This document shows, piece by piece, positions 9,145 to 11,952 of a DNA stretch of 14,107 nucleotides. Below the pieces are notes generated by a model, which was not told where the DNA came from, did not search any database, and saw nothing but the letters and a program-made list of their open reading frames with translations. A program made the position numbers and the translations under genes. This DNA comes from Thiobacillus sp. (GTDB lineage: Bacteria; Pseudomonadota; Gammaproteobacteria; Burkholderiales; Thiobacillaceae). Positions within the stretch are counted from its first letter, which is position 1, and the number at the start of each line of letters is the position of its first letter. The stretch is from the NCBI GenBank assembly GCA_024710445.1, contig JANJUT010000150.1, forward strand, positions 1 to 14,107, written 5' to 3'.

Positions 9145-10088
9145 GGCAGATTCACCTCGGGATCACGCGCAAACGGCCACATCTTGTTGATTTCATTGAC
9201 CAGCGCATTGGCCTTGCGCACCGCATCGTCGATTTCGGCGCGCAGCTTGGCAATGTCCTGCGTACCTTCCTTGACGTCGGCCGATATCGCCACGGCATTG
9301 GCCATCAGGGCATCGGCTTTTTTCAGGCTGGCTTGCGCGTCCGTCAGCATCAGGCGTACCTGTGCCATGGAGCCGCTCGCCTGGTCGGCGATTCCGCCGC
9401 TTGCGAAAAGCCAGCGGTCCGCCTTGGTTGCCATGCCATCCATCTTTAGGGCCATGCCATCGAGCTTGGTGATGAGGGCACGGGTCTTGTCGAGCGAGTC
9501 GGTCACGGCACGGGCTTTTTCCGGACTGCCCAGTACGCTTTCCAGTACGCCATATTCACCGGTCATGCGTCCGGTCACGGTTTTGACGTTGGCCAGCGTG
9601 GCATTGATTTCGCCATCCTTGCGGGTGAGGTGTTCAACATTGGCCAGGATTGCCTTGACCCGCTCGACCAGCACCGGGATTTCCTTGCTGACGTCGGATG
9701 TGGTCAGTAGCATGGTGGCGTTGTCGGGCAGGGCGGGGGCATTCAGATCGGGGGAATCGACGCGGATCTTGGCGCCGCCGACGATGGGTTTGTCGAGGGT
9801 GAAACTGCTGTTTTCTTTCAGCCATTTGGCGTTGCGCGCCAGGAACTCGGTGTGAATGATGATGCCGCCGTTGTCGTTCAGTCCCAGCGTGGTAACGCGG
9901 CCGATTTCAATGCCGGAAAACACGACCGGCACGCCCGGCGCCACGCCGTCGGCGCTGGCCGCGGCGAGCTGCAGGTGAACCGTGTCCTCGAAAAATCCGC
10001 GTGCATGCAGCAGGTAGACCAGGAAAACCCCGGCCAGCAGCAGCGATGCGGCAGCAAACAATCCGACCTTGAAATGCAGTGTGTTCAT
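9141..10088 (-). CDS. MCE (MlaD-like) domain protein
   Basis: A 315-residue periplasm-facing protein anchored by one N-terminal membrane helix (about 9-28, VGLFAAASLLLAGVFLVYLL without processing). The MCE domain spans about 37-115: VHLQLAAASADGVAPGVPVV, FSGIEIGRV (57-65) and PIVGGAKIRVDSPD. A long helical, coiled-coil-prone tail follows (about 133-305, with KADALMANAVAISADVKEG), ending in PFARDP. MCE proteins form hexameric rings that carry lipids between inner and outer membranes. The long tail resembles LetB/PqiB or Mce needle forms more than the short E. coli MlaD (183 residues). Overlaps of four bases on both sides (10085-10088 with the ATPase-like gene, 9141-9144 with the lipoprotein gene) tie it into one operon. 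Confidence 0.9.
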   Translation of the reverse strand: MNTLHFKVGLFAAASLLLAGVFLVYLLHARGFFEDTVHLQLAAASADGVAPGVPVVFSGIEIGRVTTLGLNDNGGIIIHTEFLARNAKWLKENSSFTLDKPIVGGAKIRVDSPDLNAPALPDNATMLLTTSDVSKEIPVLVERVKAILANVEHLTRKDGEINATLANVKTVTGRMTGEYGVLESVLGSPEKARAVTDSLDKTRALITKLDGMALKMDGMATKADRWLFASGGIADQASGSMAQVRLMLTDAQASLKKADALMANAVAISADVKEGTQDIAKLRAEIDDAVRKANALVNEINKMWPFARDPEVNLP

Positions 10089-10555
10089 TCCGAATCTAGT
10101 GCCTGGTTATATAGCGGCTGGTTCCAGCTGAAATCGTAAATCTCCCACGTGCCCGTCATTGCGGCCTGTTCGGCCAGTTGCCTGATAAACGCAGGATAGG
10201 GCACATCGTAAAGCATGGCGCCGGGGCGGTCGATGACCAGGCGTGGGCGTTGCAGAATGAGTGCGCGCGCCAGCTGGGTGGCGAAGCGCTGCGCCGGCGT
10301 CATATCGGGATCGCGCAGTGGCGCAATGCCGGCAAATCCCAGCCGCTCCAGCATGGCCTGTGCTTGCCGGGTGGATTCCGTTGCATCGAAGTGGCTTTGA
10401 TACAGCGGGATCAGTGCGATGTTGTCGAGTGCCGACAGGTTGGCCCGCAGTGGCAGATCGAGCGCCACCCGTGCCACATCGTCCGGCAGGGCGGCGACAG
10501 CCGCCAGCAAGGCGGAGCGGTCGGCGAACGGCGTCAGATGTATTTGAGCGCTAAT
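10085..10555 (-). CDS. ABC-ATPase-like protein without P-loop (MlaF position), probable ATT start
   Basis: About 156 residues in the MlaF position of an MCE operon. The middle resembles the helical half of an ABC ATPase: ANLSALDNIALIPL (38-51) corresponds to the post-Q-loop LTVLENVALPL, MTPAQRFATQLARALI (85-100) sits where LSGGQxxRVAIARAL belongs, and PRLVIDRP (104-111) stands for Walker B. There is no Walker A, no Q-loop glutamine, the signature glycines are lost, the Walker B glutamate is replaced by R, and no switch histidine is seen (EIYDFSWNQ). ATP hydrolysis by it alone is unlikely. No ATG, GTG or TTG suits: ATT at 10555 follows GAGGTGG (10566-10560); TTG at about 10510 and GTG further in have no ribosome site. 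The frame is intact and overlaps the MCE gene by four bases, arguing against a pseudogene. Function as a partner or scaffold is inferred. Confidence 0.65.
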   Translation of the reverse strand: MSAQIHLTPFADRSALLAAVAALPDDVARVALDLPLRANLSALDNIALIPLYQSHFDATESTRQAQAMLERLGFAGIAPLRDPDMTPAQRFATQLARALILQRPRLVIDRPGAMLYDVPYPAFIRQLAEQAAMTGTWEIYDFSWNQPLYNQALDSE

Positions 10556-11331
10556 GACACCACCTCGATCGCAACGATGGCAAAGAATACCCGCATCATT
10601 CCGCGCAGCACGGAGACCGGGACCATGAACAGTTTTTTCGGGGTTTCGAGCCCGGCCGTGATGGGGATCAGCGTGACAGCGAGCCCGAACAGGGCACATT
10701 TGGCAATCAGGCCGGCCATGATCTGCAGATTGAAAATTTTCGCAAAGGTTTGGGTGAAAGGCTCAAAACCTGCCATGCTCAAGCCATAAATCGACAGATA
10801 GGCCAGCAGCAGGGCGAGCAAGCCCGCCAGTCCGGCCAGGGTGATGACCGAAATCACGCCGCCGATCAGGCGTGGCAAAAACTCGAACTGCATCGGCGGA
10901 ACCTTGCAGTGGGCCAGCGCATCCAATTCATTGTTGACCTGCATCAGCGCGATTTCGGTGTTGATGGCGCTGCCGGAGCGCAAGGCGATAAAGAGCGCGG
11001 TCAGGAAGGGCAGCAACTCCAGGACCAGCACGCGGATGGTCATTTCGCTGGCGAATTCGGTCAGACCGAAGTCGCGTGCCGTGGACAGGATGATGGTGAT
11101 GATGAGCCACGAAATGACCAGCGCGTAGCCGAGGAAGACGTGAAGGATTTGCACCGAAGTGAAGTACACCTGCTTGATCACCACGTCGAAGGTGGCGCGG
11201 TTCCAGATGGTGCGGTCGAGCAGCAGCAGCAACACGGCTTTGGCCAGAAAGGCAAAGATGCCGTAGCCGACGGTAAACCAGCCGGTGACTTTGGCGCCGA
11301 GTGATTCGATGGATGCCGCAAGAAAATTCAT
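10534..11331 (-). CDS. MlaE-family ABC permease
   Basis: A 265-residue inner-membrane protein of the MlaE/TrbI-like permease family that works with MCE proteins in lipid transport. Hydrophobic segments are visible at about 18-38, 60-84, 99-118, 154-186, 205-226 and 245-262. The family core is present in altered form: RSGSAINTEIALM (118-130) for the usual RVGAAIAAELGTM, then NNELDALAHCKVPPM (133-147) where the coupling helix normally reads EQIDALxVMGVDP, and FEFLPRLIGGVISVI. The changed coupling helix coincides with the degraded ATPase encoded next. The ATG at 11331 has only a weak AAG-type ribosome site. It is the first gene of the leftward operon, divergent from the SH3 gene across 84 bases. 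Confidence 0.88.
   Translation of the reverse strand: MNFLAASIESLGAKVTGWFTVGYGIFAFLAKAVLLLLLDRTIWNRATFDVVIKQVYFTSVQILHVFLGYALVISWLIITIILSTARDFGLTEFASEMTIRVLVLELLPFLTALFIALRSGSAINTEIALMQVNNELDALAHCKVPPMQFEFLPRLIGGVISVITLAGLAGLLALLLAYLSIYGLSMAGFEPFTQTFAKIFNLQIMAGLIAKCALFGLAVTLIPITAGLETPKKLFMVPVSVLRGMMRVFFAIVAIEVVSLALKYI
10560..10566 (-). promoter_or_regulatory. Shine-Dalgarno supporting the ATT start
   Basis: GAGGTGG on the minus strand, four bases before ATT at 10555-10553 and inside the last codons of the permease gene. It is the only good ribosome site for the downstream frame. Confidence 0.45.
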
Positions 11332-11388: not shown

Positions 11389-11415
11389 TTTGCAGTCAGA
11401 AGGAGAGTACAGACG

Positions 11416-11952
11416 ATGAGAACCCCCATGATTCCTGTTGCCGCGATGCTGCTATGCATGGCATCGGCATCGGCCCTCGCCGCATCGGGTACCGTATTGC
11501 GCAGCGAAAAGATCTATAGCCAGCCCAGCTCGGGATCGAAAGTCACCGCAAATATAGCCAAAGGCGCCACGGTGAATATCCTGGCCAAGCAGGGCGGCTG
11601 GCTGCGTGTGTCTGCAGGCAAGACCACGGGCTGGATGCGACTGTTGTCGGTGCGTGCCGGTGCGGGGGGATTGAGCAGCAGTGGCGTGGGCGATGTTCTG
11701 GGGGTGGCCACGACCCGGTCCGACCCCAGTCGTGTGGTGGCGGTGGCAGGATTGCGCGGCCTGAATGACGAAGAACTGAAACAGGCCAAGTTCAACGCGG
11801 ACGAACTGGCACGGCTGAATACCTGGAACGTGACCGAGACCCAGGCCCGCAGTTTTGCCAGCCAGTCCGGCCTGGTTGCAGCCAATGTGCCGGCCCTGCC
11901 TGAACCCAGGCCTGCGCAAGCCAACACCTCGTCACCGTGGGGAGACAACTGA
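11416..11952 (+). CDS. Secreted SH3b-domain protein
   Basis: A 178-residue exported protein. The signal peptide MRTPMIPVAAMLLCMASASA then LAAS predicts cleavage near residue 22-23. A bacterial SH3 (SH3b) domain follows at about 25-80: SGTVLRSEKIYSQPSSGSKV, then ANIAKGATVNILAKQGGWLR and GWMRLLSVR, with the usual KG turn and GWL/GWM strands. The C-terminal half (AVAGLRGLNDEELKQAKFNA and on to ETQARSFASQSGL) is a conserved helical extension seen with this protein type beside M48 proteases. SH3b domains bind peptidoglycan or peptides in the envelope; the ligand here is unknown. AGGAGAG (11401-11407) supports the ATG at 11416 rather than the open frame from 11353. Its TGA overlaps the next ATG by one base. 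Confidence 0.85.
   Translation: MRTPMIPVAAMLLCMASASALAASGTVLRSEKIYSQPSSGSKVTANIAKGATVNILAKQGGWLRVSAGKTTGWMRLLSVRAGAGGLSSSGVGDVLGVATTRSDPSRVVAVAGLRGLNDEELKQAKFNADELARLNTWNVTETQARSFASQSGLVAANVPALPEPRPAQANTSSPWGDN

Follow-up and report, generated by a model that had tools for sequence, protein, structure and literature searches.

We analyzed a 14,107-nucleotide stretch of DNA from Thiobacillus sp. (the window), which is the 14.1-kb contig C95 (JANJUT010000150.1) of a draft genome estimated to be 76.6% complete (GCA_024710445.1), and focused on an operon of the MCE transport family that lies within it and probably encodes a lipid transporter of the inner membrane. An overlapping run of minus-strand genes encodes, in order, an MlaE-like permease, a 156-residue protein related to only part of an ABC ATPase nucleotide-binding domain (NBD), which we refer to as the half-NBD, an MCE protein and a putative lipoprotein (Table 1). 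The ATG of the MCE gene overlaps the stop codon of the half-NBD gene (ATGA), and the ATG of the lipoprotein gene overlaps the MCE stop codon in the same manner.

The permease scores above the cut-off of the MlaE permease family PF02405; it also matches NCBIfam TIGR00056 at E 8e-23, yet under that model's cut-off, and a permease profile (A4) matches MlaE structures at E 5e-19. The MCE protein contains a single MCE domain at residues 36-99, followed by approximately 215 residues without a significant Pfam match, and it matches TIGR00996 at E 8e-9, which is under the cut-off of that model. By descent the operon belongs with the MCE/MlaE systems, but it is without the feature by which an ABC transporter is defined.

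Table 1. Features of the MCE operon and its flank in the window
Feature	Position	Strand	Basis
MlaE-like permease, 265 residues	10534..11331	-	PF02405, E 5.1e-39, 134.5 bits against a cut-off of 22.5
Permease coupling-helix segment with flank, residues 118-154	10870..10980	-	bounds inferred by alignment with MlaE
Shine-Dalgarno-like GAGGTGG	10560..10566	-	sequence; GAGG ends 7 nucleotides ahead of ATT
Proposed AUU start codon of the half-NBD	10553..10555	-	comparative evidence
P-loop-less half-NBD (pseudo-ABC ATPase), 156 residues	10085..10555	-	open reading frame and family profile
MCE (MlaD-type) protein, 315 residues	9141..10088	-	PF02470, E 1.8e-7
Putative lipoprotein, 224 residues	8470..9144	-	lipobox LSAC, read by eye
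SH3-domain protein gene	11410..11952	+	PF08239, E 1.4e-10

The half-NBD is an ABC ATPase relative without the ATP motifs

A sequence-only reading of the window had described an intact frame between the permease and MCE genes that resembles one half of an ABC ATPase, and our comparisons confirm this. When searched alone, the half-NBD reached E 0.28 against PF00005, under the cut-off, and E 2.8e-5 against the LolD model, far under the cut-off of that model. A 66-row family profile (A3) gave E 7.6e-8 against ABC ATPases of known structure; this match covers 97 positions, from ahead of the Q-loop to past Walker B, and the kinship with the ABC ATPase superfamily is therefore real. The first residue of the half-NBD aligns with residue 69 of the MlaF encoded in the same genome; since this position falls after Walker A, the protein is truly truncated. 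We therefore rejected the reading of LTPFADRSALL as a P-loop that decayed in situ: aligned to solved NBDs, as to MlaF, the half-NBD begins beyond Walker A. A fusion to the permease by programmed frameshift was also rejected, because no slippery heptamer was seen at the junction by eye and the half-NBD is encoded separately from the permease in genomes with a split operon.

We counted motifs across 83 distinct family members, with database rows keeping the start assigned by the gene caller. Walker A (GxxxxGK[ST]) was found in 0/83, and it was also absent when half-NBD frames were read from stop to stop in 22 order-wide and 73 named loci, so that full-length homologues with Walker A, which would have marked the window's copy as a recent truncation, were not among them. 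The catalytic glutamate of Walker B is replaced by arginine in 83/83, the Q-loop glutamine is present in none, the first glycine of the LSGGQ signature is kept in two and the second in none, and the switch histidine appears in one member, although residues of the C-terminal switch strand are aligned with less confidence. The Walker B aspartate is retained in 75/83 and the D-loop aspartate in all. The window's own protein follows this pattern, lacking Walker A, the Q-loop glutamine, the signature glycines, the Walker B glutamate and the switch histidine, as had been read from the sequence, and keeping the Walker B and D-loop aspartates. None of the four elements of an active ABC ATPase (Walker A, LSGGQ, Walker B aspartate with glutamate, and switch histidine) is thus in place. 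What remains is the Q-loop segment, the helical subdomain and the Walker B/D-loop core, along with invariant residues that active NBDs do not need (R81, D82, R110, W144 and Y149, among others). By alignment, the half-NBD is an ABC ATPase minus the N-terminal quarter that holds Walker A and minus the catalytic residues.

The half-NBD gene likely starts at a conserved AUU codon

A half-NBD of 156 residues, the length given by the sequence-only reading, has ATT as its first codon, and comparative evidence for this start was found; the gene caller's product for the window (P0002) is 15 residues shorter, at 141. The conserved N-terminus (ISAQIHL...) begins at this ATT, the first base of which lies 22 nucleotides before the end of the permease stop codon, and the preceding GAGG is retained in nearly all loci with ATT. 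The 22 order-wide loci with an adjacent half-NBD comprise 14 with ATT and eight with an ATG that is close to the permease stop or follows it. Among 80 named loci, which are not independent of the other sets because many of their records are the same genomes as in the congener and order-wide sets, ATT was in frame in 70 and in two more after correction; two others had GCT with an ATG six codons on, one had the half-NBD in another frame with an ATG available, and five had no adjacent half-NBD. A probable AUU is therefore present in the window (10553-10555, minus strand), L072-L079, L081, L083-L085, L100, L103 and 72 of L152-L231, and is conserved in four family handles (f1, f11, f35 and f47).

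In five loci, an in-frame TGA lies 9 nucleotides before the ATT; L223 is one of these, and its next canonical start is 36 codons in. We rejected a downstream TTG, GTG or ATG start, as the first one in frame, scanning from 38 nucleotides upstream, occurs 6 to 84 codons past the ATT, and an upstream ATG at 10699, as the upstream frame is not conserved by eye. The serine codon that provides the A of ATT is TCA in 51/51 Thiobacillus-type permeases versus 28/573 serines elsewhere in the gene, and the codon after it is TTA in 47/51 versus 9/2058 leucines. As a control, lone permeases, which are no longer followed by a half-NBD, have lost the ATT at that place in six of seven cases, with L080 retaining it. 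In the split operon of L080, the permease end holds this ATT and a remnant of the former junction, a short stump in frame with the half-NBD that reads ISFQVHL before the sequence becomes unrelated; this remnant is gone from L082. The six half-NBD genes from split operons all start near the same position, with ATT behind a GGAG-type site in L232 and L247, ATC in L246 and ATG in three; L232 and L246 also have an in-frame GTG that overlaps that site and could serve as the start instead. Altogether, the comparative data make initiation of the half-NBD at AUU, a very rare start codon, likely. An AUU that overlaps the permease end would be a weak start, giving low output tied to translation of the permease.

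The half-NBD is conserved, and no MlaF-like ATPase was found with the permease

The half-NBD is ancient: an orthologue was found in 32/35 congeners at 75-86% identity, with one interrupted by a contig end. In G004, G014 and G025 (81-90% complete), permease matches were distant only (E 6e-19 or weaker); a partial MCE gene with 76% identity was present in G025, and no MCE orthologue was found in G004 and G014. Using pairwise Nei-Gojobori estimates for pairs with dS of 0.1-1.2, we obtained a median dN/dS of 0.199 from 50 half-NBD sequences, taken outside the overlap, compared to 0.176 from 49 MCE genes and 0.118 from 51 permeases. The half-NBD is thus under purifying selection by this measure, with a value well away from the near-1 ratio that would have counted against the earlier proposal of a pseudo-ATPase kept by selection; that proposal stands, with dN/dS of about 0.2 and the motifs lost across the 83 members.

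In a draw of 300 genomes from the order, with E 1e-25 as the limit, an orthologous permease was present in 44, including the window's, and the other 43 loci were all mapped with their flanks, a few of which ended at contig ends. The half-NBD lies between the permease and MCE genes in 22 of these loci (six family handles), whereas in 19 the permease is followed directly by the MCE gene and lipoprotein with no NBD, and two have a permease without half-NBD or MCE gene. None of the 43 mapped loci yielded an MlaF-like ATPase, the best match of an open reading frame to canonical MlaF having an E of 4e-4, and so none was seen to encode an active ATPase with its permease, some flanks being limited by the contig. 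The half-NBD frame is open in the 22 order-wide loci, across their six family handles, and in 31 congeneric loci. Permease relatives on plasmids were not found at E 1e-20. One public record titled Rhizobium sp. (L174) holds a Thiobacillus-type operon with 88% permease identity and is probably a mislabelled bin.

Loss of the catalytic motifs here and of the whole half-NBD in sister lineages could also be read as decay, with the half-NBD a dying pseudogene of an MlaF-like ATPase. We regard this as highly improbable, since dN/dS is 0.2, the frame is open in all 22 order-wide and 31 congeneric loci, residues outside the ATP motifs are invariant and the gene was retained after the operon split.

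The presence of the half-NBD is tied to the coupling helix of the permease

In MlaFEDB, a coupling helix between the second and third transmembrane helices of the permease mediates contact with MlaF, as described in PMC7790496, and the window's permease carries the sequence motif of this helix. We compared 15 thinned permease sequences with the half-NBD and 15 thinned sequences without it. When the permease was cut into seven non-overlapping segments, the helix segment was the most conserved with the half-NBD and the least conserved without it. Mean pairwise identity at the best segment was 62.6% with the half-NBD versus 30.5% without, compared to 57.0% versus 34.2% in the predefined helix segment (30 columns, beginning 9 columns later) and 49.6% versus 47.1% in the rest of the permease. 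The largest drop among 210 sliding segments was also located at the helix. Log-odds against a canonical MlaE profile were 0.81 with the half-NBD and -0.02 without it at the helix, and -0.37 and -0.43 in the rest of the permease.

A conserved glutamate and methionine of the helix are both present in all 35 permeases next to a half-NBD (the window's is one of them), in 7/7 lone permeases, and in 7/21 permeases without a half-NBD. From the intact helix of the lone permeases, we expected a half-NBD elsewhere in their genomes, a prediction that could have failed; it was encoded elsewhere in six of the seven (G236, G164 and G701-G704), each time beside an MCE gene. When the half-NBD profile was run against the 21 NBD-less genomes, the best match in each had an E of 1.6e-11 or weaker and fell in a longer frame, as for ordinary ABC ATPases. 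Together, these comparisons tie the presence of the half-NBD to the NBD-docking helix of the permease.

This link bears on whether the half-NBD could instead be a soluble regulator of a partner other than the permease, such as a canonical NBD, and sit in the operon for co-expression only. It would then act much as the STAS protein MlaB, a part of MlaFB (PMC7367683), binds MlaF. Contact between the half-NBD and the permease is a prediction, the invariant residues RD 81-82, RF 90-91, W144 and Y149 near the C-terminus could form another binding face, and in the six split genomes the half-NBD has the MCE gene, and not the permease, as its neighbor. However, its presence follows the state of the coupling helix, including in six of seven lone-permease genomes, and we therefore hold a regulatory role to be quite unlikely.

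A structural seat on the permease is the favored explanation

We consider it probable that the half-NBD is a functional pseudo-NBD that has a structural seat on the coupling helix of the permease, in an MCE system that does not hydrolyze ATP in cis. A scaffold on the helix is favored because the half-NBD and the coupling-helix sequence are both gone from a sister lineage that kept the permease, MCE protein and lipoprotein. The half-NBD would occupy the NBD seat, as MlaF does on MlaE, and keep the permease either fixed or cycling passively. The lipoprotein and the MCE protein, which extends approximately 215 residues beyond its single MCE domain, would complete a lipid path through the periplasm; one lineage would later have discarded the half-NBD. 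Physical docking, lipid as the cargo and independence of ATP are all deduced from sequence comparison. A comparable periplasmic path is described for Pqi (PMC12436622). PMC9947336 reports that the mycobacterial MCE ATPase, MceG, is needed to keep its transporters from degradation and that Walker B mutants also failed. Since loss of MceG leads to degradation of the transporter, an NBD can matter for stability, but the analogy is only partial because the Walker B mutants failed too.

The sequence-only reading had left three options, namely an ATPase encoded elsewhere, a different energy source, and a regulator or scaffold, and it had suggested looking for a canonical operon in the genome. We found two by eye, on C144 and C17. 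The comparative data favor the scaffold; powering in trans keeps some chance for the window's lineage, which has two canonical MCE ATPases. In that case, the half-NBD would be an adaptor through which MlaF on C144 or the ATPase on C17 drives the permease, much as MceG is shared by Mce1 and Mce4 in mycobacteria (PMC9947336), and the coupling helix, which is still conserved in the window's lineage, fits such an arrangement. On the other hand, Walker A is missing, arginine replaces the Walker B glutamate in 83/83 and the second signature glycine is present in 0/83, so the half-NBD would not be expected to form an ATP site together with another subunit. Relatives without it have also lost the coupling-helix sequence and keep the permease, MCE and lipoprotein genes, and an ATPase is therefore hardly required in those relatives. 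We judge the adaptor unlikely, at roughly one chance in a handful.

Several observations weigh against a structural seat. The two canonical ATPases of the genome could act in trans. The predefined helix segment ranks only 39th, with 38 of the 210 sliding segments dropping more, although the eight largest drops all begin 5-15 columns upstream of it and overlap it, and two other segments are better conserved without the half-NBD (73.9% versus 54.1% and 45.7% versus 27.5%). The permeases behind the log-odds were hand-picked for diversity, with Thiobacillus represented by the window; the two sets are related by descent, so the rank-test p-value overstates the evidence. One lone permease with an intact helix (G700) had no half-NBD that we could find. 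G004 and G014 appear to be without the system, which would be dispensable, or unassembled, there. Finally, since the NBD-less loci form one group, the half-NBD may have been lost and the helix may have decayed just once, and the p-value from the rank test does not count as independent evidence.

Catalysis may have been lost in steps

In a midpoint-rooted tree of 94 permeases, the NBD-less loci fall inside the half-NBD clade, beside L084, which kept the half-NBD (support 0.89 with L084; 0.55 for the NBD-less group by itself). Canonical MlaE sequences do not form a single clade in the tree as drawn, and we therefore make no claim about exactly how the gammaproteobacterial group branches. Small-permease MCE operons in other gammaproteobacterial genomes outside the order have NBDs in several states: L147 is full-length, has Walker A, the Walker B glutamate and the switch histidine and lacks the signature glycines; L143 has Walker A, with asparagine replacing the catalytic glutamate; L145 and L148 are full-length with broken motifs; and L117, the nearest outgroup in the tree, is truncated. 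L144 was left out, as its NBD frame looks shifted in the N-terminal part. These few loci suggest that catalysis was lost repeatedly in this permease class, in a direction and a number of events that are tentative. We give about even chances to a graded series from a primary-active ABC lipid transporter to an ATP-independent MCE conduit, which would run from a full NBD to a full-length NBD with broken motifs, then to a truncated, AUU-started pseudo-NBD plugging the coupling helix, and lastly to loss of the NBD and coupling helix with the permease, MCE protein and lipoprotein kept.

The NBD-less permease-MCE-lipoprotein operons without a conserved coupling helix (L089-L090, L095-L099, L101-L102, L104-L114 and L116) are possibly a widespread ATP-independent MCE system. 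Upstream of the operon at L114 (2424-3725), translated frames repeat FNPHPARRPGAV, resembling CRISPR-type direct repeats.

The operon lipoprotein belongs to a nameless family

A relative of the lipoprotein follows the MCE gene in 41/43 mapped loci, and the protein matches no family (best Pfam E 0.51; no NCBIfam match), so that it represents a nameless family conserved with the operon. The SH3-domain protein gene is divergent from the operon and is followed by a frame resembling an M48 metalloprotease by eye.

Comparison with known systems

Neither an MCE operon with a P-loop-less NBD nor this AUU start was found in titles or abstracts of the open-access full-text literature, a scope outside which subscription papers and preprints fall. 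The operon shares with MlaFEDB an MlaE-fold permease, an MCE protein and the kinship of its NBD gene. It differs in that its NBD is truncated and without working ATP motifs, the gene order is permease-NBD-MCE, no MlaB or MlaC was seen in the operon, the MCE protein has 315 residues with a long C-terminal part, and a lipoprotein is added. Closer in layout is the C17 operon of the same genome, which has the same kinds of products, the same gene order, a lipoprotein (by eye) and an MCE protein longer than MlaD, but encodes a full ATPase with Walker A. The four-gene Mpc system of Brucella likewise has these kinds of products and an MCE protein longer than MlaD, but, in the description given by PMC12436622, it has an MlaF homologue and a permease with a STAS extension.

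To our knowledge, PqiA and LetA are not MlaE-type permeases, whereas the membrane protein of this operon is MlaE-type and not of the PqiA/LetA type. No relic of an NBD is described for PqiABC or LetAB. Like our operon, these systems have an inner-membrane partner without an ATPase domain, and PqiC is an outer-membrane lipoprotein (PMC12436622), but their MCE proteins have three or seven MCE domains compared to one here. The mycobacterial systems served by MceG resemble it in that MCE permeases have no working ATPase in their own operons; there, according to PMC9947336, an active ATPase is shared in trans, whereas in our operon an inactive protein takes the place of the NBD.

The same MlaE-type permease thus occurs alongside a half-NBD incapable of catalysis and, in sister lineages, without any NBD, and natural proteins therefore allow the mechanical role of an NBD to be told apart from its catalytic one. 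This bears on whether MCE systems need ATP and on what an NBD adds beyond hydrolysis, and an MlaE/MCE annotation does not imply an ATP-driven transporter. With regard to its start codon, the half-NBD gene resembles infC (AUU start) and sigR (GTC start), for which PMC5472188 describes conserved initiation outside AUG, GUG and UUG, but here the AUU falls within the stretch shared with the gene before it, in an operon for a transporter. The half-NBD gene is thereby an example, beyond the genes for translation factors, of a conserved gene that probably starts at AUU.

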